Assembly: GCA_951813395.1 (NCBI GenBank)
Contig: OX638356.1
Location: 1,219,340 to 1,283,339, forward strand
Length of the DNA stretch: 64,000 bases
Reading direction: 5' to 3'
Source of the DNA: Longimicrobiales bacterium
GTDB taxonomy: Bacteria; Gemmatimonadota; Gemmatimonadetes; Longimicrobiales; Gaopeijiaceae
The translations under genes and the position numbers were made by a program. Below the pieces are notes generated by a model. That model was given only the letters and a program-made list of their open reading frames with translations, ran no database searches and had not been told where the DNA came from. Of the stretch, positions 20,603 to 37,005 are shown one piece after another (position 1 is the first letter of the stretch; each line of letters begins with the position of its first letter).

Positions 20603-21329
20603 CGGACGCCGAAGACGCCGCGACCGCTGCCACAACCGCGGCATTCGTCGCCGCGACCGCCGCCTGAGCCGCCGCGACCGCGTTCCTGACCGCCTGTTGA
20701 GCCGCCACGGCGGACTGCGCGCTCGTCCGGAACGCCTCACCCGACGAGATCGCCTTGAGCCGCCTCTTGCGTGCCCGTAGCTCCTTGCGGTCGAAGTGGA
20801 TCCGGAGCGACCCGGTCGTGTGGGCGAGCGACAGCACCACGCCGAGACCCGGCTCGACCTCCTCGTCACCCATCACGGCTTCCCGGAGTGCCTCGATGAC
20901 GCGACGTTCGGGCTCGGGATCCACGGTCGGATAGACCTTGCGGCTGAAGATCAGCAGCAGCTGGGACTCGCGCGCGCGCAGGATGCCGCGGCGGCAGAGA
21001 CCCACGGCGGTACGGTGCCGGAGGCGCTTGAGAGCACCGAAGCGCTGGACCCACGACGCGGCCCCGCGCCGTTTGGATCCGCGGACCTTGTCGAGCGCCT
21101 CGTCCATGACCTCATCACGGACCCGGGCGATGCCGGGCGCGGCCTCGACCCACGCTCGCTTGCCCTCGTCGATCCGGATGTGGCCTTCCAGCGCCAGTTC
21201 GGCGAGAATGGCCCCGCCCATCGCCAGGTTGTAGTGACCCGCCCGGTAGTCTACGGTGCCCTTGCGGTCACGCAGGGCAAGGAGCAGGAGTTGTTCGTGA
21301 AGGTGGAGGTCGTGGCGGGATGAACTCAT
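20598..21329 (-). CDS. GOLPH3/VPS74 (GPP34) domain protein
   Basis: The 243-residue protein matches the GPP34 fold: LHEQLLLLALRDRKGTVDYR at the start, AGHYNLAMGGAILAELALEG, then helical blocks (GALKRLRHRTAVGLCRRGIL) and PTVDPEPERRVIEALREAV. In eukaryotes GOLPH3 binds phosphatidylinositol-4-phosphate at the Golgi. Bacterial members, best known in actinomycetes, have no established role. The last 40 residues are almost only Ala, Val and Ser (a low-complexity helix) and are not part of the family fold. No signal peptide is seen, so a cytoplasmic or peripheral membrane location is expected. It stands alone between a convergent amidase and a divergent NHL gene. Confidence 0.75.
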   Translation of the reverse strand: MSSSRHDLHLHEQLLLLALRDRKGTVDYRAGHYNLAMGGAILAELALEGHIRIDEGKRAWVEAAPGIARVRDEVMDEALDKVRGSKRRGAASWVQRFGALKRLRHRTAVGLCRRGILRARESQLLLIFSRKVYPTVDPEPERRVIEALREAVMGDEEVEPGLGVVLSLAHTTGSLRIHFDRKELRARKRRLKAISSGEAFRTSAQSAVAAQQAVRNAVAAAQAAVAATNAAVVAAVAASSASG

Positions 21330-21474
21330 GGACGAGGTATTCGCGGTGAACGCGTGGTGTGGGAGGGGTGGCCGCGGTCGGGTGCGGGAGCTAAGGTGCC
21401 CACAAATGTTAGGTACGTTCCCCCGCGCACGCCTCTTCAGCAGGGAACGCCCCCTTCAATACGGAGACGAAGGA

Positions 21475-22509
21475 ATGATCAGACAGTTTTGTGCAGCGAG
21501 CGCCGGAATCATCGCGGCCACGGCCGTCATTGCCGCGACCGGGCCCCTCCACGCCCAGCACGACACCAGCAACCCGTTCCGCCCCGTCTACGGATGGGGT
21601 GAACTCCCCGAGGGCCGCGAGTGGGGATCGACCAGTGCCATCGAGATCGCGCTGGACGGCAACATCTGGGTCGCGGAGCGCTGCGGGCGCAATACCTGTG
21701 TCGGCTCCGACGTCGATCCGATCCTGCTCTTCGACACCGACGGCAACCTGCTGCGCAGCTTCGGCGGCGGGATGTTCGCCTGGCCGCACGGCATCGACGT
21801 CGACCACGAGGGCAACGTGTGGGTGACCGACGCCTGGGCCAACGGCGCCACCACGACCGGCCACTCCGTGCTCAAGTTTTCGCCCGAGGGCGAACTGCTC
21901 ATGACCATCGGCACCCCGGGCGAGGCTGGCGACCCGCCCGGCCACCTCACCCGCCCCTCAGACGTGGTGGTCGCGCCCAACGGACAGATCTACGTGGTGG
22001 ATGCGCACGATCGCACCCGGGGTCGGGTCATCCGCTACGACGCCGACGGGAACTACATGGAAACGTGGGGCGAACTCGGCTACGGTCCGGGGCAGTTCCG
22101 CGATCCGCACGCGCTGGCCATGGACTCGCAGGGCCGGATCTTCGTGGGCGACCGCTATAACAACCGCATCCAGATCTTCGACCAGGAGGGCGAGTTCCTC
22201 GCGATCTGGACGCAGTTCGGCCGCCCGAGCGGCATCTACATCGACGCCGACGACAACATCTACGTGGCCGATTCGGAGTCGAGCCCCGCGCCCAACGAGT
22301 TCACCGGGCAGCGCAACGCCGGCTGGGAGAAGGGGATCCGGATCGGGGACGCGCGCATGGGGTGGGTGCATCACTTCCTGCCCGACGACCGCGCGAACGT
22401 GATGGGGTTCAGCGGCCCCGAAGGCGTGGCCGTGGACAGCGACGGGAACGTGTACGGCGCCGAGGTGTCCCAGCGGCGCATCACGAAGTGGGTGCGCTTC
22501 AGGAGGTAG
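21475..22509 (+). CDS. secreted NHL-repeat beta-propeller protein
   Basis: The 344-residue protein starts at MIRQF after a strong ribosome site (ggagacgaagga), with a signal peptide (IIAATAVIAATGPLHAQ). At least five NHL-like repeats follow, each with a turn of the form DxxGN and a strand such as IWVAE, VWVTDAW, IYVVDAH, IFVGDRYNNRIQIFD and IYVADSES. The fold resembles peptidyl-alpha-hydroxyglycine lyase and other six-bladed propellers, but I see no basis for a specific reaction. A shortened paralogue lies at 26.7-27.3 kb beyond the molybdenum hydroxylase operon. Its 3' end overlaps the convergent FAD-subunit gene by 11 bases. Confidence 0.8.
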   Translation: MIRQFCAASAGIIAATAVIAATGPLHAQHDTSNPFRPVYGWGELPEGREWGSTSAIEIALDGNIWVAERCGRNTCVGSDVDPILLFDTDGNLLRSFGGGMFAWPHGIDVDHEGNVWVTDAWANGATTTGHSVLKFSPEGELLMTIGTPGEAGDPPGHLTRPSDVVVAPNGQIYVVDAHDRTRGRVIRYDADGNYMETWGELGYGPGQFRDPHALAMDSQGRIFVGDRYNNRIQIFDQEGEFLAIWTQFGRPSGIYIDADDNIYVADSESSPAPNEFTGQRNAGWEKGIRIGDARMGWVHHFLPDDRANVMGFSGPEGVAVDSDGNVYGAEVSQRRITKWVRFRR

Positions 22510-26675: not shown

Positions 26676-27338
26676 GTGGCGATGCGTCCGCTCGGCGGGT
26701 TAACCTTGGGTTCCATCCCCTTCAACTTGGGTTCCATCCCCTTCGAGGAGTCAACCCGGAATGACGAATCGAGCCACATTCGCTGGGACTCTGGCCGCCG
26801 CAACTCATGCGTCGGGTCGAATGTCGATCCGATCCTGCTCTTCGACCACGAGGGCAACGTGTGGGTGACCGACGCGTGGCGGACGGGCGCCACTACGACG
26901 GGCCACTCCGTGCTCAAGTTCTCCCCCGAGGGTGAACTGCTGATGACGATCGGCACTCCCGGCGAGGCCGGCGACCCGCCCACCCACCTGACCCAGCCGT
27001 CGGACGTGCTGGTTGCGCCGAACTTCCTCGCGATCTGGACGCAGTTCGGGCGCCCGAGCGGCCTCTACATCGACGGCGACGACAACATCTACGTGGCCGA
27101 TTCCGAGTCGAGTCCCGCGCCCAACGAGTTCACCGGGCAGCGCAATGCAGGATGGGAAAAAGGGATCCGCATCGGCGACGCCCGCAATGGCTGGGTCCAC
27201 CACTTCCTGCCGGACGACCGTGCCAACGTGATGGGGTTCAGCGGGCCCGAGGGTGTGGCGGTCGACCGCGAAGGCAACGTGTACGGCGCCGAAGTTTCGC
27301 AGCGGCGGATCACGAAGTGGGTGAGGTTCCGCCGGTGA
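26676..27338 (+). CDS. shortened paralogue of the NHL propeller protein (probably decaying)
   Basis: From about residue 50 the protein matches the 21.5 kb NHL protein closely. Relative to that copy it lacks the signal peptide and N-terminal blade, about 23 residues between DPILLFD and HEGNVWV, and about 71 residues between VAPN and FLAIWTQFG. Both gaps are in frame. The remaining identical residues are often encoded by different synonymous codons, so the duplication is not recent. With blades missing it is unlikely to form a closed propeller. Its stop overlaps the GTG start of the M16 peptidase gene (GTGA). I list it as a CDS because the frame is open. Confidence 0.55.
   Translation: MAMRPLGGLTLGSIPFNLGSIPFEESTRNDESSHIRWDSGRRNSCVGSNVDPILLFDHEGNVWVTDAWRTGATTTGHSVLKFSPEGELLMTIGTPGEAGDPPTHLTQPSDVLVAPNFLAIWTQFGRPSGLYIDGDDNIYVADSESSPAPNEFTGQRNAGWEKGIRIGDARNGWVHHFLPDDRANVMGFSGPEGVAVDREGNVYGAEVSQRRITKWVRFRR
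26706..26745. repeat. 21-bp tandem repeat, about two copies
   Basis: The unit ttgggttccatccccttc occurs at 26707-26724 and again at 26728-26745, a period of 21 bases. It lies inside the 5' part of the shortened NHL paralogue and adds seven codons in frame. It may be replication slippage in a gene no longer under tight selection. Confidence 0.8.
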
Positions 27339-29317
27339 GCGGTATCCGGGCCGCGGTGCCGCTCCTGCTGCTGGCCGCGTCGGTGACCGCGCAGGAGCCC
27401 GAGCCCCAGTCCACGTCACCCAACCCGTTCGCAGACTTCGAAACCCACCACCTGTCCAACGGGGTCAAGGTCTGGTTCAAGCACCTGCCTGGAGTCCCCA
27501 ACGTTTCGGTGAGCGCGGGCGTTCCGGTGGGTTCCGACGCCGATCCGCCCGGCAAGGAGCAGTTGGCGCATTTCACCGAACACATGCTCTTCTCCGACCA
27601 CGACGGGCGCACGGAGCAGGAGATCAAGGACGCCGTCGAGGGGCTCGGCGGGCGGCGCAACGGTGTGACCTACCGCGATCACACCTGGTACTACGTCACG
27701 ATCGGCCGGGAGCACGGACTCTTCGCCATCGAATGGCTTGCCGGCATCCTGTCGCCGCACGCCATGGATCCCGCTGTGGTGGACCGGGGCCGCCAGCCCG
27801 TGGAGAACGAGATCGGTGCCCGGCCCCGCGAGCTGTTCGATCACCTGGGAGCGCTCTTCACGGCTTCCTGGCTGGTGCCTCCGGACTTCTGGGAGGCCGA
27901 GTTCGGCATATCGCGGCTGCGCGACCCGAACCGCGACGTCTGGCGCAGCCTGCAGGGCATCACGCCGGACGACCTGCGCGGCTTCTACGACCAGCATTAC
28001 GCGCCGGGACAGATCACGGTCACCATCGTCGGCGACCTCGACGCGGCCGACGCGCTGGCCACCGCCGAGCGCACCTTCGGCACCATCCCCGCCCGTTCGT
28101 TCGAGCCCTGGACGATACCGGTCGTTGATCCGGAACGGGGGAAGTCCACCTACGGCTGGGGCTTTCAGTCCACGGCCCGGTACCAGTCGCGGCACAAGCT
28201 CTTCGACCCGACGGCCGACGACGTGCTGACCGCGCTGTTCATCCGCGACCTCCTGAACCGGCGACTCAACCAGCGCCTTCGCTACGGCGAACGCAAGGCC
28301 GTGTACGGCGCGAGTGCCGGCCTCACGAGACGCGGTGCCGCCGTGTACCTGCAGATCAGCAGCCGCATCGACGAGGACGATTTCGACTTCGCAACCGGGG
28401 TGATCGCCGAGGAGATCGAGTTCCTGCGGACAGGGACCCTGGATCCCGCCGAGTTCGAGGCCGACCGGGCGGCGGTGGTGGCAAGGCTGCGCGGTTCCAA
28501 CCAGACGTCGGAGTCACTCAACTTCTGGACGCGCACGACCTTCTACGATCCCGCGACCTTCACGGACTTCCCCGACGTGCTCTCCTTCTACGAGAACCTG
28601 ACCCAGGACCAGGTCGCGGCATTCGCCGAGACAGCGTTTGACCCGTCGCGGCAGGTGCTCGACATCAGCCGGCGGCAGCCCGTGAGCCAGGGCACCATGG
28701 TCGTCGCGGTCGCCGTGCTGATCGCGCTTACCCTGCAGGGGCTGAAGAGGCTCCTCACAAAGCCGGTGCGGATGAGGGAGATTCGCTACATCGCGCATTT
28801 CAAGCTGCCGGTTGCCTTGCGCACGGCATACGTCATCGGGGTCGTGGGAGTCGCGGTGGCGGCGGTCGTGCTGGCAACGTTCGGGATTGAACGGCTGACC
28901 GACCGGTGGATCGAGAGCGTCGACAGCTACGTCTTCCAGTACGCGTGCAATGCGGTCATCCTCGCTTTCCTTGTGGCGGCCCCGACCCTGATCGTCACGT
29001 CCTCCCCGCGTAAACTGCTCGTCTTCAGCGACCACCTGCGGATCAAGAGGCGCGCCTGGCACTCCCGCATACTCGAGCCCGAAGATATCGCCGACATCTC
29101 GATCCGCCGATTTCCGGGGGTCTGGCTGTCACGCGAAGTGCTCCGGGGCGCCCCGCTGGCCTTCGGTTTCCTCCGCCCGGGCATCCATCTGCGTCCGGTC
29201 AAGGGCCGGAGCTACTTCTTTCGCAGCCGCGACACCGAGGAGCTTGCCGAGGTGCTGAGCGAGTGGTGGGGACGGCCAGCCGCGAGCGAGTCAGACGATC
29301 CGAATGGATCCGGCTGA
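27335..29317 (+). CDS. M16-family zinc peptidase fused to a membrane anchor and PH-like tail
   Basis: The 660-residue protein starts at a GTG overlapping the upstream TGA and has a signal peptide (AAVPLLLLAASVTAQ). The inverted zinc motif is HFTEH in QLAHFTEHMLFSD, with the third ligand in PVENEIGARP, so the catalytic M16 domain is complete. The companion M16 domain follows (YAPGQITVTIVGDLD to about residue 440). The C-terminal 200 residues hold three hydrophobic helices (GTMVVAVAVLIALTLQGLK, AYVIGVVGVAVAAVVLAT, ACNAVILAFLVAAPTLIV) and a short beta-rich domain (LLVFSDHLRIKRRAWHSRIL). Such a membrane-anchored tail is unusual for M16. Confidence 0.82.
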   Translation: MSGIRAAVPLLLLAASVTAQEPEPQSTSPNPFADFETHHLSNGVKVWFKHLPGVPNVSVSAGVPVGSDADPPGKEQLAHFTEHMLFSDHDGRTEQEIKDAVEGLGGRRNGVTYRDHTWYYVTIGREHGLFAIEWLAGILSPHAMDPAVVDRGRQPVENEIGARPRELFDHLGALFTASWLVPPDFWEAEFGISRLRDPNRDVWRSLQGITPDDLRGFYDQHYAPGQITVTIVGDLDAADALATAERTFGTIPARSFEPWTIPVVDPERGKSTYGWGFQSTARYQSRHKLFDPTADDVLTALFIRDLLNRRLNQRLRYGERKAVYGASAGLTRRGAAVYLQISSRIDEDDFDFATGVIAEEIEFLRTGTLDPAEFEADRAAVVARLRGSNQTSESLNFWTRTTFYDPATFTDFPDVLSFYENLTQDQVAAFAETAFDPSRQVLDISRRQPVSQGTMVVAVAVLIALTLQGLKRLLTKPVRMREIRYIAHFKLPVALRTAYVIGVVGVAVAAVVLATFGIERLTDRWIESVDSYVFQYACNAVILAFLVAAPTLIVTSSPRKLLVFSDHLRIKRRAWHSRILEPEDIADISIRRFPGVWLSREVLRGAPLAFGFLRPGIHLRPVKGRSYFFRSRDTEELAEVLSEWWGRPAASESDDPNGSG

Positions 29318-29935: not shown

Positions 29936-30023
29936 CTTTGGTCCGCTTTCTCCGTCCACGCCATCTGCCTTGGCCTGTCTGCCGGGGAAAGACCGCAACA
30001 GTAACCCTTTGGAGGTCACCAAG

Positions 30024-30221
30024 ATGTTTGCGATTCAACCCCTGAAGCGCGCCGTTCTCACGATCCTGTTTCTCGCAGTTGCAACGCCGATGGTGGCGCA
30101 GGGCCCACCGCCAGCCTGTTTCGATTTCTGTCACTTCTGGGCGATGGTCCGGTACGATGCGGGTATGAACTGGTCGGACAACAATGCGCTTTTCCTGCGG
30201 TGCATTGACCGCACGTGCTGA
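30024..30221 (+). CDS. small secreted four-cysteine peptide
   Basis: This 65-residue ORF has a strong ribosome site (ttTGGAGGtcaccaag) before its ATG. The first 26 residues are a classic signal peptide (RAVLTILFLAVATPMVAQ). The mature part is about 39 residues, with exactly four cysteines arranged as two pairs (CFDFC and CIDRTC, the last Cys being C-terminal), so two disulfides are plausible. I do not recognise a family. Its stop overlaps the GTG start of the next gene by 7 bases, which couples it to a propeller lipoprotein. In Bacteroidota, NVEALA-type leader peptides precede similar propeller genes; an analogy with that arrangement is inference only. Confidence 0.7.
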   Translation: MFAIQPLKRAVLTILFLAVATPMVAQGPPPACFDFCHFWAMVRYDAGMNWSDNNALFLRCIDRTC

Positions 30222-31258
30222 TAGGTCGAATCTCTGGCCACGAACGACTACTTGCGATCGCCGCTATGGCGGTTGTGGCGAGTTGCAATTGGGGTGATTA
30301 TGACTGGACTACTCATGCGCTCGACCACGTCGGGTCCACCCAGGCGCCGTTTACCGGGATCTATGATATTGCCCTTGTGACTGAACACACGGCCTGCCTA
30401 ACCAATAGTTACCAGCGCCAAGTTCATTGCGTTACCCGCGAGGGTAATGTAGTTGGGGTATTCGGAGCCGAGGGTGAGGGACCAGGGGAGTTCACAAGCG
30501 GGCCCGCCGTTACACGTGGACCAGATGGCACGGTTGCAACAATTTCTGAAGACCGGCTGGCCCTTTTCAAGTCAGATGGGCGCATGGTGTCTGAGATCAC
30601 GCTACCCATTGCATTCCTTGAGCTTGCCGCCCCGGTTGGGGAGACGATTCTGGCGCAGCACTTTGCAGGCGGCATGCATTTGACCCCAGTGGAAATCGAT
30701 GTGGCCACGGGCGACCTGGTTTGGGAGCGTCAAGGGCTCCATGAAGTCGTGCGAACCGAGTGTGAAAGGTTAGCATTAGGTGTCGCTTCTCCCGAGGGCG
30801 GATGGGCCTTTCCAGCTTGTCAGCGCGAACTGGTGTTCCTTGCGAATCGGGACGACAGGTCAGCCCTTGTTGTAACATCGCCGACCCATTCTTTGGAACT
30901 GCCCAACGACCGCGACATTGCCGAGGCCGAGTGGGTGAATTCACAATACCAGTGGTATGACGTAGACTCGTTCAAGGAAACGCCTAAGCGTAATCATCTG
31001 AGGAGAGGGTCACTAGTATACGACGACCAGCGCCGACTTTGGGTGGCGACCGAGAGGGATCGAGCCAAGTATTCCCACTTCGATGTCTATCGAGACGGCG
31101 AACATGTTGGGTCGGTGAGGATCCGTGATCGGATCCTCGCCTACGACATCTATGGCCCGACCCTTACGGCGTTAGTAGAGCGACCCCCGGACTTAGACGG
31201 AATCGCGCATCTGGCCACGGATTGGTACGACATATCTTCTATCGATTTCGAACGTTGA
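30215..31258 (+). CDS. six-bladed beta-propeller lipoprotein
   Basis: The 347-residue product from a GTG start has a lipobox (AAMAVVASC) and a six-bladed propeller signature (GVFGAEGEGPGEFTSG), with later blades such as DGTVATISEDRLALFKSDGR and SLVYDDQRRLWVATERD. The base composition is clearly less GC-rich, with more A/T-ending codons than its neighbours, which suggests it was acquired. It is translationally coupled to the small cysteine peptide upstream. A surface or periplasmic binding role is likely, but no ligand can be named. The next 300 bases downstream are non-coding. Confidence 0.7.
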   Translation: MLIGRISGHERLLAIAAMAVVASCNWGDYDWTTHALDHVGSTQAPFTGIYDIALVTEHTACLTNSYQRQVHCVTREGNVVGVFGAEGEGPGEFTSGPAVTRGPDGTVATISEDRLALFKSDGRMVSEITLPIAFLELAAPVGETILAQHFAGGMHLTPVEIDVATGDLVWERQGLHEVVRTECERLALGVASPEGGWAFPACQRELVFLANRDDRSALVVTSPTHSLELPNDRDIAEAEWVNSQYQWYDVDSFKETPKRNHLRRGSLVYDDQRRLWVATERDRAKYSHFDVYRDGEHVGSVRIRDRILAYDIYGPTLTALVERPPDLDGIAHLATDWYDISSIDFER

Positions 31259-31761: not shown

Positions 31762-33265
31762 CAGGCCGTGGATAAAATCCGCCCCACGAGGCTCTTGTGA
31801 ATGAGTTAAATTAGGAGGACACTCGGACCTCAGCGAGAGGTGACGGCGATGGCGATAGGCAAGATGCCGGGTGAGCGGCAGGAGGAGCTGTTCATCGCGG
31901 CCAGTGCGGTCGGGGCGCTGGACAACCCGTTCTACGCGGCGCTGGACAAGCTGCTGCGCAAGAGCGGTTTCGACGAGTTCGCGGAGGAGACGTGCCGGGA
32001 GTTTTACGCGGAGCGGATGGGTAGGCCGGGCCTCGCGCCGGGCGTGTACTTCCGGATGCTGATGGTGGGATACCTGGAGGGGATCGGCTCGGAGCGGGGT
32101 ATCGCGTGGCGGTGCAGGGACTCGATCTCGTTGCGGGAGTTTCTGGGCTACGGTCTGGCGAAGACGCCGCCGGAGCATTCCACGCTGTCGAAGACGCGCA
32201 AGCGGCTGAGCCTGGAAGCCCACGGGGCGGTGTTCGGCTGGGTGCTGGAACGGCTGCAGGAGTCGGGGCTGCTGCGAGGCAAGACGGTGGGGGTGGATTC
32301 GACGACGCTGGAGGCGAACGCGGCGATGCGCGCGATCGTGAGGCGTGATGAGGGGACGGAGTACGACGCGTGGCTGGAGCAGTTGGCGAAAGCGTCGGGG
32401 ATCGAGACGCCGACGCGGCAGGACCTTGCGAAGATGGACCGCAAGCGCCCGAAGAAGGGGTCGAACAAGGACTGGAAGCATCCGCACGACCCGGAGGCGC
32501 GGATCACGAAGATGAAGGATGGCCGCACCCGCTTGGCGCACAAGCTCGAGGTGGGGGTGGACATGGAGACCGGTGCGGTGGCCGCCGTCACGGTGCAGAC
32601 GATGGACGGTGGCGACACCGCGTCGCTGCCGGTGACGCTGGACGAGACGGAGCAGCGGCTGGCGGATGTGGGAGCGGAGCCGAAGGAAGTGGTGGGCGAC
32701 AAGGGCTACCACTCGAACGCGACCATGACGGGCGTGAAGAAGCGGGGACTGCGAACCTATGTGAGCGAGCCGAACCGGGGCCGCCGGAAATGGAAGGGCA
32801 AGCGGGAGGCGCAGCAGGCCGTGTACGGCAACCGCCGCCGCATCAAGGGCGAGCGGGGAAAGCGGCTGCTGCGCGAGCGAGGGGAAAAGCTGGAGCGGAC
32901 GTTCGCGCACCTGCTCGGCAGCGGAGGGTTGCGCCGCGTCCACGTTCACGGACACGAGGAGATCCGAAAACGGATGCTCGTTCACGCCGCGGCCTTCAAC
33001 CTCTCGCTGGTGATGCGCACATGTTTCGGCTTCGGCACCCCGCGTGGCCTGCAGGGCCTCGCAGCGGCGGCCGCGGCTCTCGCCGACGCGTCCGCACACA
33101 GTCTTGCCGCCTTTTTTCGCCACATCGGGCGCGTTCTCGGCCTCCAGGGCACACAGGTCGGCCCCGTCCGCCGCTCAGCCGCCTGATGCACAACAAAACC
33201 GCAATCACGTCGTTCTTGCCGCTTCCACCACCGGCTTCCCAGCGAGCCACTTCTTCCACGGCCTG
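31762..33265 (+). mobile_element. IS1182-like insertion sequence with CTAG target duplication
   Basis: The ends carry an imperfect terminal inverted repeat: the left end begins caggccgtggataaaat and the right end, read inward on the other strand, begins caggccgtggaagaagt (11 exact bases, then partial). CTAG flanks both sides, at 31758-31761 and 33266-33269, as a 4-bp direct (and palindromic) target duplication. The 1504-bp element encodes a single transposase. It sits inside an older, decayed IS3-type transposase gene, and precise excision would restore that local reading frame. The element looks recent and possibly active. Confidence 0.85.
31849..33186 (+). CDS. IS1182/IS5-type DDE transposase
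   Basis: The 445-residue product begins at ATG 31849 (an in-frame GTG lies at 31840). The N-terminal domain shows the usual transposase start (GFDEFAEETCREFYAERMGR, PGVYFRMLMVGYLEGIGSER). The DDE core has the first Asp in VGVDSTTLEANA and the second in VVGDKGYHSN. A probable Glu lies in LERTFAHLLGSGGLRR near the C-terminus. Basic residues are frequent and there is no frameshift, so the enzyme looks intact. The IS1182 assignment rests on domain layout and the CTAG duplication; IS5-group alternatives are possible. Confidence 0.85.
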   Translation: MAIGKMPGERQEELFIAASAVGALDNPFYAALDKLLRKSGFDEFAEETCREFYAERMGRPGLAPGVYFRMLMVGYLEGIGSERGIAWRCRDSISLREFLGYGLAKTPPEHSTLSKTRKRLSLEAHGAVFGWVLERLQESGLLRGKTVGVDSTTLEANAAMRAIVRRDEGTEYDAWLEQLAKASGIETPTRQDLAKMDRKRPKKGSNKDWKHPHDPEARITKMKDGRTRLAHKLEVGVDMETGAVAAVTVQTMDGGDTASLPVTLDETEQRLADVGAEPKEVVGDKGYHSNATMTGVKKRGLRTYVSEPNRGRRKWKGKREAQQAVYGNRRRIKGERGKRLLRERGEKLERTFAHLLGSGGLRRVHVHGHEEIRKRMLVHAAAFNLSLVMRTCFGFGTPRGLQGLAAAAAALADASAHSLAAFFRHIGRVLGLQGTQVGPVRRSAA

Positions 33266-35772: not shown

Positions 35773-37005
35773 TCACGCCGCGGCTGCAGCTTCCACCGTG
35801 TATCCGAGCTTGTGGAGTTGGCGCATGTGATAGCGGCGGCGGCGCTCCTTGTCGCGCCGGAGGAAGAAATCGTCGCCCAGATCTTCGTGCGACGCACCCG
35901 TCGAGAGCATGTGCCAGAGTGCCACCAGAATGGCGTGTTGCACGACCGAGATGGCCTTTCGGGGGCCGCCTCGAGCCTTATGGCGATGGTAGAGCGCCGA
36001 GTAATAGCTGCCCCGGGTCCGTGCCGCCGACCACGCCACCTGTCCAAGCGTCGCGCGCAGCCAGGCATTGCCCTTGCCGGTGGACACGGACTTGCGCTTT
36101 CCGGCGCTCTCGTGGTTGCCCGGACAGACCCGGGCCCAGGAAGCCAGGTGCCCGGCTGTCGGGAAGCACGTCATGTCCGGCCCGATCTCGGCCAGAATCG
36201 TCTGGGCGGCACGCTGCGCGATACCCGGCATGCTCTCGATGATGTCAACAGCCCGTGAAAAAGGGCGCGTACGCTCCTCGATGCGGGCGTCGAGTTCGTC
36301 GATGTGCTGCGACAGCTCGTCGATCAGCCGGAGATGCCGGCCCAGCATGAAGCGGTAGTGTTCCGTCATCCGGCCGGCGGTAGCTTCGGCCAGCTCCTTG
36401 CGCTTCTTCTTCAGCGACCCCTGTGCCAGCCGGGCGAGCGCTTCCGGGGCTTCGACGCCTGCCGCCAGAGCATCCAGGATCCCCCGCCCCGTCTTCCCCA
36501 TGATGTCCGTCACGACCGAGCCCAGCTTGATGTTGGCCATCTCGAGCGTCTTCGCCACCCGGTTGATCTGGCGGCTCCGCTCGCCGATCAGCGACTTCCG
36601 CAGACGGGTCAGGTCTCGCAGATCGCGGATCTCCGGCGGCGGAACGAAGCTCCCTCTGAGCAGGCCGCACTCCAGCAGCCGCGCGACCCACTCGCAATCA
36701 CGGACATCCGTCTTCCTCCCCGGAACGTGCTTGATGTGGCGGGCGTTGACGAGCAACAGCTCGAAGTCGTCCTCAAGCACGACGTAGACCGGCCTCCAGT
36801 ACACGCCCGTCGACTCCATCGCCACATGGGTCACGCCGTTGCCCCGAAGCCACTCCCGGAGCGCCTCCAGTCCCGCCAGCGTCGTCGCGAACGTGCGGAC
36901 AGCCTTGTGCCGGCCGGCCACCTCCCTGCCCGGCGTACGAACGCACGCCACCACGGTCTTCTTGTGCACGTCGAGGCCCGCGCACCGTTCGATCATGACA
37001 TCCAT
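35773..37005 (-). CDS. IS110-family DEDD transposase
   Basis: The 410-residue protein has the RuvC-like DEDD domain: first Asp in AGLDVHKKTVVACV, Glu in HVAMESTGVYWRPV, and Asp residues in GRKTDVRDCEWVARLL. The C-terminal Tnp_20 domain carries the serine region (AGHLASWARVCPGNHESAGK) with a helix-hairpin-helix-like MPGIAQRAAQTILAEIGPD. AGGAGG lies six bases before the ATG. No frameshift or stop interrupts it, so it may be active. Enzymes of this family are guided by a bridge RNA from the element's own non-coding end. Confidence 0.9.
   Translation of the reverse strand: MDVMIERCAGLDVHKKTVVACVRTPGREVAGRHKAVRTFATTLAGLEALREWLRGNGVTHVAMESTGVYWRPVYVVLEDDFELLLVNARHIKHVPGRKTDVRDCEWVARLLECGLLRGSFVPPPEIRDLRDLTRLRKSLIGERSRQINRVAKTLEMANIKLGSVVTDIMGKTGRGILDALAAGVEAPEALARLAQGSLKKKRKELAEATAGRMTEHYRFMLGRHLRLIDELSQHIDELDARIEERTRPFSRAVDIIESMPGIAQRAAQTILAEIGPDMTCFPTAGHLASWARVCPGNHESAGKRKSVSTGKGNAWLRATLGQVAWSAARTRGSYYSALYHRHKARGGPRKAISVVQHAILVALWHMLSTGASHEDLGDDFFLRRDKERRRRYHMRQLHKLGYTVEAAAAA

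Follow-up and report, generated by a model that had tools for sequence, protein, structure and literature searches.

The 64-kb stretch of DNA analyzed here (the window) contains a two-gene unit in which the gene for a tiny exported protein ends with a stop codon overlapping the start of the gene for a membrane-anchored six-bladed propeller. We estimate at about one half the probability that this cassette makes a binary envelope complex, in which a helical-hairpin peptide is the dedicated cis partner of its propeller. The helical-hairpin peptide family is new to Pfam and NCBIfam, and the architecture of the pair has a known relative in Bacteroidota.

The founder of the family is a small exported four-Cys protein of 65 residues encoded on the + strand (positions 30024 to 30221, ATG to TGA), with a Shine-Dalgarno sequence (GGAGG; 30011 to 30015, + strand) read directly 8 nt 5' of the ATG. 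The gene for the NHL-type propeller lipoprotein (30215 to 31258, + strand; 347 residues) starts with a GTG codon, resulting in a 7-nt overlap with the peptide gene. No Shine-Dalgarno sequence is visible before this GTG. A stop codon in the same frame lies shortly 5' of it, so that no longer start exists. Translation of the propeller therefore probably depends on translation of the peptide, i.e., translational coupling of the two genes is likely. Of the ORFs on both strands of the window, exactly one combines a ribosome site with a hydrophobic stretch and three or more Cys: the peptide ORF at 30024. The GC contents of the peptide and propeller genes are 0.581 and 0.564, respectively, versus 0.678 for the window and 0.62 to 0.66 for paralogous propellers in the same genome. 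The neighboring genes include a DDE transposase (31840 to 33186, + strand; PF05598, PF01609, and PF13751) and an IS110-family transposase (35773 to 37005, − strand; PF01548 and PF02371). An earlier note on this DNA had described a secreted 65-residue peptide with a strong ribosome site and two Cys pairs (CFDFC and CIDRTC), its overlap with the start of a six-bladed propeller lipoprotein gene, and the location of the pair in an island with mobile elements and deviating base composition; all three descriptions were confirmed. Scans for promoters and terminators gave results no better than those obtained with shuffles. Elsewhere in the window, a shorter NHL ORF (26676 to 27338) looks like a truncated copy of the NHL protein encoded at 21328 to 22509 and abuts the frame of an M16 peptidase (27152 to 29317).

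In the peptide precursor, a classical n-region containing KR precedes a hydrophobic core and an AxA-like end, features that together predict a Sec (type I) signal peptide (MFAIQPLKRAVLTILFLAVATPMVA; 30024 to 30098, + strand). This pattern is common to the family, most members ending in A↓Q. From its sequence, the window peptide is expected to be cleaved before Gln26 (MVA↓Q), leaving a mature peptide of about 40 residues (QGPPPACFDFCHFWAMVRYDAGMNWSDNNALFLRCIDRTC; 30099 to 30218, + strand) with a net charge of approximately −1. AlphaFold2 predicted two antiparallel helices (model residues 4 to 19 and 24 to 38) with a mean pLDDT of 92.3, from an alignment of two rows only, the window peptide and one relative. 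The Cys residues (positions 32, 36, 60, and 65) form one pair in each helix of the model: CFDFC (CX3C; 30117 to 30131, + strand) in helix 1 and CIDRTC (CX4C; 30201 to 30218, + strand) in helix 2. In the family alignments (A3 and A6), the first pair is invariant and the second is invariant as CX3C or CX4C. The model fits two disulfides that would cross-link the helices, with a presumed pairing. Since the genome encodes VKOR, periplasmic disulfide formation is plausible. Pfam and NCBIfam searches with the peptide family gave no match, nor did searches of phages with the peptide or of plasmids with the propeller.

Plant alpha-hairpinins are defense peptides with a C-X3-C-X4-20-C-X3-C motif (PMC11591084). 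These peptides, including the vicilin-buried peptides, consist of two antiparallel helices with two Cys pairs, as predicted for the window peptide. The best PDB match of the peptide family profile was the vicilin-like entry 7uv2, with an E value that was not significant (0.028). The spacing of the window peptide, C-X3-C-X23-C-X4-C, falls outside the alpha-hairpinin motif, and some relatives display CX3C at both ends. Foldseek found no PDB match for the 39-residue model, a helix-loop-helix predicted at pLDDT 92 that would carry two disulfides, and the single VIA row for this model (8jxm, Z 4) was uninformative. Unlike alpha-hairpinins, the peptide family is mostly acidic, bacterial, and tied to a propeller gene. 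The likeness is best read as convergent.

The earlier note staked its proposal on the presence of homologous small ORFs upstream of other propeller genes in the phylum, and four-Cys peptides were found there. Small ORFs were gathered from these upstream regions by pattern and by profile. Approximately a dozen related genomes have four-Cys peptides preceding propellers of this family, as does the window's own genome, where L004 (...DDCGEECHEEAMEICGSC...WQDCHEDCGA) is a second copy; the pair is found in several families of Gemmatimonadota. The peptides share a signal peptide, an invariant C-X3-C...C-X3/4-C pattern, and, four residues after the second Cys, an Ala that is likewise invariant; the resulting C-C-A-C-C series is invariant in the alignment of 14 family members. 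Most mature peptides are acidic (net charge between −3 and −16), and one has a net charge of +1. In other members, the peptide and propeller genes lie up to ~80 nt apart. The pattern CX3C...CX3-4C following a hydrophobic stretch was detected 10 times in 49.9 kb of sense DNA upstream of propellers, never on the opposite strand of the same regions, and once in 178 kb elsewhere in the loci.

Because the peptide seeds came from regions upstream of propellers, the association was tested in reverse, starting from the peptide profile, in samples of 98, 395, and 394 genomes that overlap. The full-length profile returned many weak matches due to signal-peptide noise, a problem that was solved by mature-only profiles. 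The peptide-first searches gave three new peptides (L147, L150, and L118, the last from another family of the order) and two degraded ones (L149 and L153), each adjoining a propeller of the same family. All significant matches with a readable flank were adjacent to a propeller; the flank of the match L151 runs off the contig. A relaxed scan added the peptide L179, and a search of genome contigs with a single protein sequence gave no match. Weak mature-profile matches having neither a propeller nor a signal peptide (L152, E value of 6.6e-5, and L154 to L157) were rejected as noise. Comparison of 17 cassette neighborhoods revealed the propeller as the sole shared gene: no third gene is conserved, and no modification enzyme or dedicated exporter recurs beside the precursor as it would for a RiPP. 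At one locus (L085/L261, G011:C75), two tandem CX3C-type small proteins, the first with a possible lipobox (LLAGC), precede a single propeller. Propellers of the same family at L167, L170, and L179 are found in bins labeled Gammaproteobacteria, for which mislabeling or contamination is likely.

Comparison of close pairs gave dN/dS ratios of 0.28 to 0.44 for the full precursor and of 0.24 to 0.32 for the mature part, indicating that the peptides are under purifying selection. About 85 to 88% of the propeller copies examined lack the peptide. The carriers are scattered over the 96-row propeller tree, a distribution that requires 12 changes, and at least 11 even when only well-supported branches are considered. 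L035 and L054 retain the start of the peptide (MSFLTRSFRG) and have lost its body, the peptide being intact in their relative L147, and only the C-terminal FYECLEECEEEEEGSSTC is left in L039. As seen in these remnants, the peptide was lost repeatedly, by deletion or truncation. Purifying selection on the propeller persists where the peptide has been lost (e.g., dN/dS of 0.36 for L035/L054), indicating that the propeller has a role of its own and that the peptide is a losable addition. The dependence is one-way, the peptide being found only beside a propeller and the propeller often alone. Peptide and propeller distances were correlated for 14 pairs (Mantel r of 0.80), but not significantly with one representative per deep clade (r of 0.14; p of 0.22). 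The correlation therefore rests on close pairs, and no deep coevolution is demonstrated.

The propeller sequence contains a lipobox (VAS-C) followed by Cys24 (30284 to 30286, + strand) after a short hydrophobic stretch, which predicts lipidation of this residue, the invariant first Cys in an alignment of 26 mature sequences (A4). Members of the family carry the lipobox and four further invariant Cys (C38, C49, C160, and C179 in A4). The AlphaFold2 model of the window propeller (pLDDT of 90.0; pTM of 0.90) matched the Brat NHL domain (5ex7) with a VIA Z of 23.9 over 254 residues (rmsd of 3.0 Å) and the sensor domain of PknD (1rwi) with a Z of 18.0, and the propeller profile matched the NHL domain of Thin at 2.5e-27. 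Because the resemblance to solved NHL propellers spans the whole domain, the modeled structure is assigned to the NHL-type six-bladed beta-propeller fold. Identity to the propellers of Brat/TRIM NHL proteins and PknD is only 8 to 14%; unlike these proteins, the window propeller is a free lipoprotein with four invariant internal Cys and no attached domains. None of the family members exceeded a Pfam cut-off. The genome, a single contig of 4.09 Mb, contains a very large expansion of DUF5128 (PF17170), with 63 matches at E ≤ 0.01, ~40 of which are over the cut-off. The window propeller is absent from these 63 matches and thus falls short of the gathering cut-off, and PF17170 was not listed for any of 16 propeller members at E ≤ 0.1. 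The best NCBIfam similarity was to ScyF (NF035926), an NHL protein of scytonemin biosynthesis, and was sub-threshold in 15/16 members (best 3.6e-6); the equivalog cut-off is 350 bits versus 15 for the propeller, and neither a PEP-CTERM nor a scytonemin context was seen. Besides the window propeller, the genome encodes at least four good relatives of it (53%, 43%, 37%, and 36% identity). Of the 98 related genomes, 28 have the propeller at E ≤ 1e-15, the majority of these belonging to the same genus, and the public records with propeller relatives are mostly Gemmatimonadota metagenome bins. In one clade, peptide-less propellers (L071, L079, L100, and L102) are preceded by an exported protein of ~200 residues (MIVSTDTR.PAP.WLR...).

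The earlier note stated that Bacteroidota place NVEALA peptides beside propeller genes, and this held for the loci inspected, 10/10 of which were directly upstream of a propeller-type lipoprotein ORF. In one Rikenella genome, each of the five NVEALA matches over the cut-off immediately precedes a propeller lipoprotein gene (PF15869 or PF17170), and one of the NVEALA genes overlaps the propeller start, as in the window. Five more loci in three related genomes display the same layout; there, the downstream lipoproteins were recognized from their size, their lipobox, and glycine-rich motifs typical of propellers rather than from Pfam. The profile of the Gemmatimonadota propellers detected three of the five Rikenella propellers, with E values of 1e-4 to 1e-7. 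The NVEALA pairs thus share the layout of the window pair: a small exported Cys-bearing peptide 5' of a propeller lipoprotein, in the same orientation and sometimes overlapping it. The window peptide differs from NVEALA peptides in lacking the NVEALA motif, in its plain A↓Q signal peptide, in the fixed CX3C...CX3-4C pattern, and in the predicted helical hairpin, and the Gemmatimonadota propeller does not reach the Pfam cut-off of either PF17170 or PF15869, the families of the NVEALA-pair propellers. None of 11 peptide members matched PF14055 at E ≤ 1, and a whole-genome search with this profile gave one chance match elsewhere (12.8 versus 27 bits). The proposal of a Gemmatimonadota counterpart of the NVEALA pair therefore stands for the architecture and the conserved cassette but not for the peptide, which is not of PF14055. 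The openly accessible literature, which covers few subscription journals, yielded no paper on the peptide family, none combining small secreted proteins, beta-propeller, Bacteroides, and operon, and no occurrence of the word NVEALA.

In the mechanism that we favor, Sec would export the small precursor, and periplasmic thiol oxidation would close two disulfides across the helix-loop-helix hairpin. Translational coupling would yield the hairpin alongside the lipid-anchored propeller, and the hairpin would dock in cis on the propeller of the same cell, in the periplasm or at the outer surface, where it would set or block the binding face of the propeller as a small subunit or ligand. Both partners carry export signals to the same compartment. 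The peptide never occurs without a propeller, the propeller is the sole shared gene, and the stop/start overlap is devoid of a propeller Shine-Dalgarno sequence. These observations argue for a cis partner, as do the invariant C-C-A-C-C, the dN/dS ratios of 0.24 to 0.44, the confident hairpin and propeller models, the presence of VKOR, the unit of the window's own genome that includes a DsbA-like gene (see below), and the selection on propellers after peptide loss. Since the propeller keeps its own function after this loss, the peptide would tune or specialize the propeller rather than be required by it. The cis-partner reading is weakened by the ~85 to 88% of propellers that are peptide-less, by the distance correlation lost with clade representatives, by the two-row alignment behind the peptide model, and by the presumed character of the disulfide pairing.

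The earlier note had proposed a signaling or an antagonistic peptide, and we keep both as less probable alternatives. A hairpin that is released as a signal, to be sensed in kin or in the host niche by propeller lipoproteins, including the peptide-less paralogues, would account for the coexistence in one genome of several paralogous propellers, some with and some without the peptide. Extracellular NHL propellers can be sensors, as exemplified by PknD (1rwi) among the structural matches, and the layout is the same as that of the NVEALA pairs. We nevertheless consider this reading unlikely, since no transmembrane kinase or transporter is linked, the Sec signal would leave the outer membrane still to be crossed, and the propeller, a stand-alone lipoprotein, lacks an output domain. 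The orphan-propeller pattern also keeps alive a toxin-immunity reading, in which the hairpin would harm competitors and the propeller would protect the producer, peptide-less propellers being orphan immunity genes. The distribution is toxin-like in that the peptide never occurs without the propeller whereas the reverse is frequent, the peptide was lost repeatedly, mobile elements surround the window pair, and CX3C hairpins are plant defense peptides (PMC11591084). However, the acidity of most mature peptides argues against an antagonist of the membrane-lytic kind, selection is purifying rather than diversifying, there is no dedicated exporter, and a propeller of 347 residues, conserved even in the absence of the peptide, is large for an immunity protein. 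We therefore regard a toxin as quite unlikely.

Translational coupling and the constant presence of a propeller beside the peptide would also be expected if the propeller helped the peptide to mature, fold, or be exported. The suggestion of a modification or export factor, also made in the earlier note, was not upheld: no such gene travels with the cassette, the fold is a plain NHL type with no catalytic signature, the peptide has its own signal sequence, no modification enzyme is encoded nearby, and propellers persist under selection without the peptide, making this role improbable. A mere translated leader, coupling translation to the propeller through a product that is irrelevant, would explain the 7-nt overlap and the lack of a separate propeller Shine-Dalgarno sequence. 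This is hardly reconcilable with Cys residues that are invariant across deep divergence, dN/dS ratios of ~0.3, a fold predicted with high confidence, a signal peptide, and intergenic gaps of up to ~80 nt in other members, and we give it very little credence.

Beyond the cassette, single observations of other Cys-rich small proteins beside propellers point to a wider architecture. We tentatively propose, as a possibility short of our favored reading for the window pair, that small exported Cys proteins and propeller lipoproteins form a general envelope system of the FCB group, in which unrelated peptide families (NVEALA in Bacteroidota, the CX3C hairpins and other small Cys-rich proteins in Gemmatimonadota, and candidates from Rhodothermales and Krumholzibacteriia) would serve one propeller superfamily as exchangeable and losable specificity modules. 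Gemmatimonadota are rich in propellers of unassigned role, for which a small, foldable, and genetically coupled partner provides a concrete binding question, and the NVEALA parallel suggests that one experiment could illuminate an uncharacterized envelope system in two phyla. The helical-hairpin peptides also add a family of small proteins missed by annotation pipelines.

Several loci of the window's own genome combine other types of small proteins with more distantly related propellers. L293 and L329 (G000:C1:3195191-3197100 and 1122813-1124800) are near-identical three-gene units encoding, in this order, a 75-residue exported Cys-rich protein, a DsbA-like thioredoxin (PF13462/PF01323), and a propeller lipoprotein. 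At L330 (G000:C1:158508-160800), an 81-residue exported Cys-rich protein (...LLCENACTPGWCCFWVGGDA), ending in CENACTPGWCCFWVGGDA, is encoded directly before a distant propeller, and the preceding ORF looks thioredoxin-like, with no Pfam match. At L297 (G000:C1:775000-776958), a 161-residue exported protein with a Cys-rich half is encoded immediately upstream of a propeller ORF. Outside Gemmatimonadota, candidate small exported Cys-rich proteins are encoded upstream of six-bladed propellers at L195, from a Rhodothermales bin, and at L228, from a Krumholzibacteriia bin.
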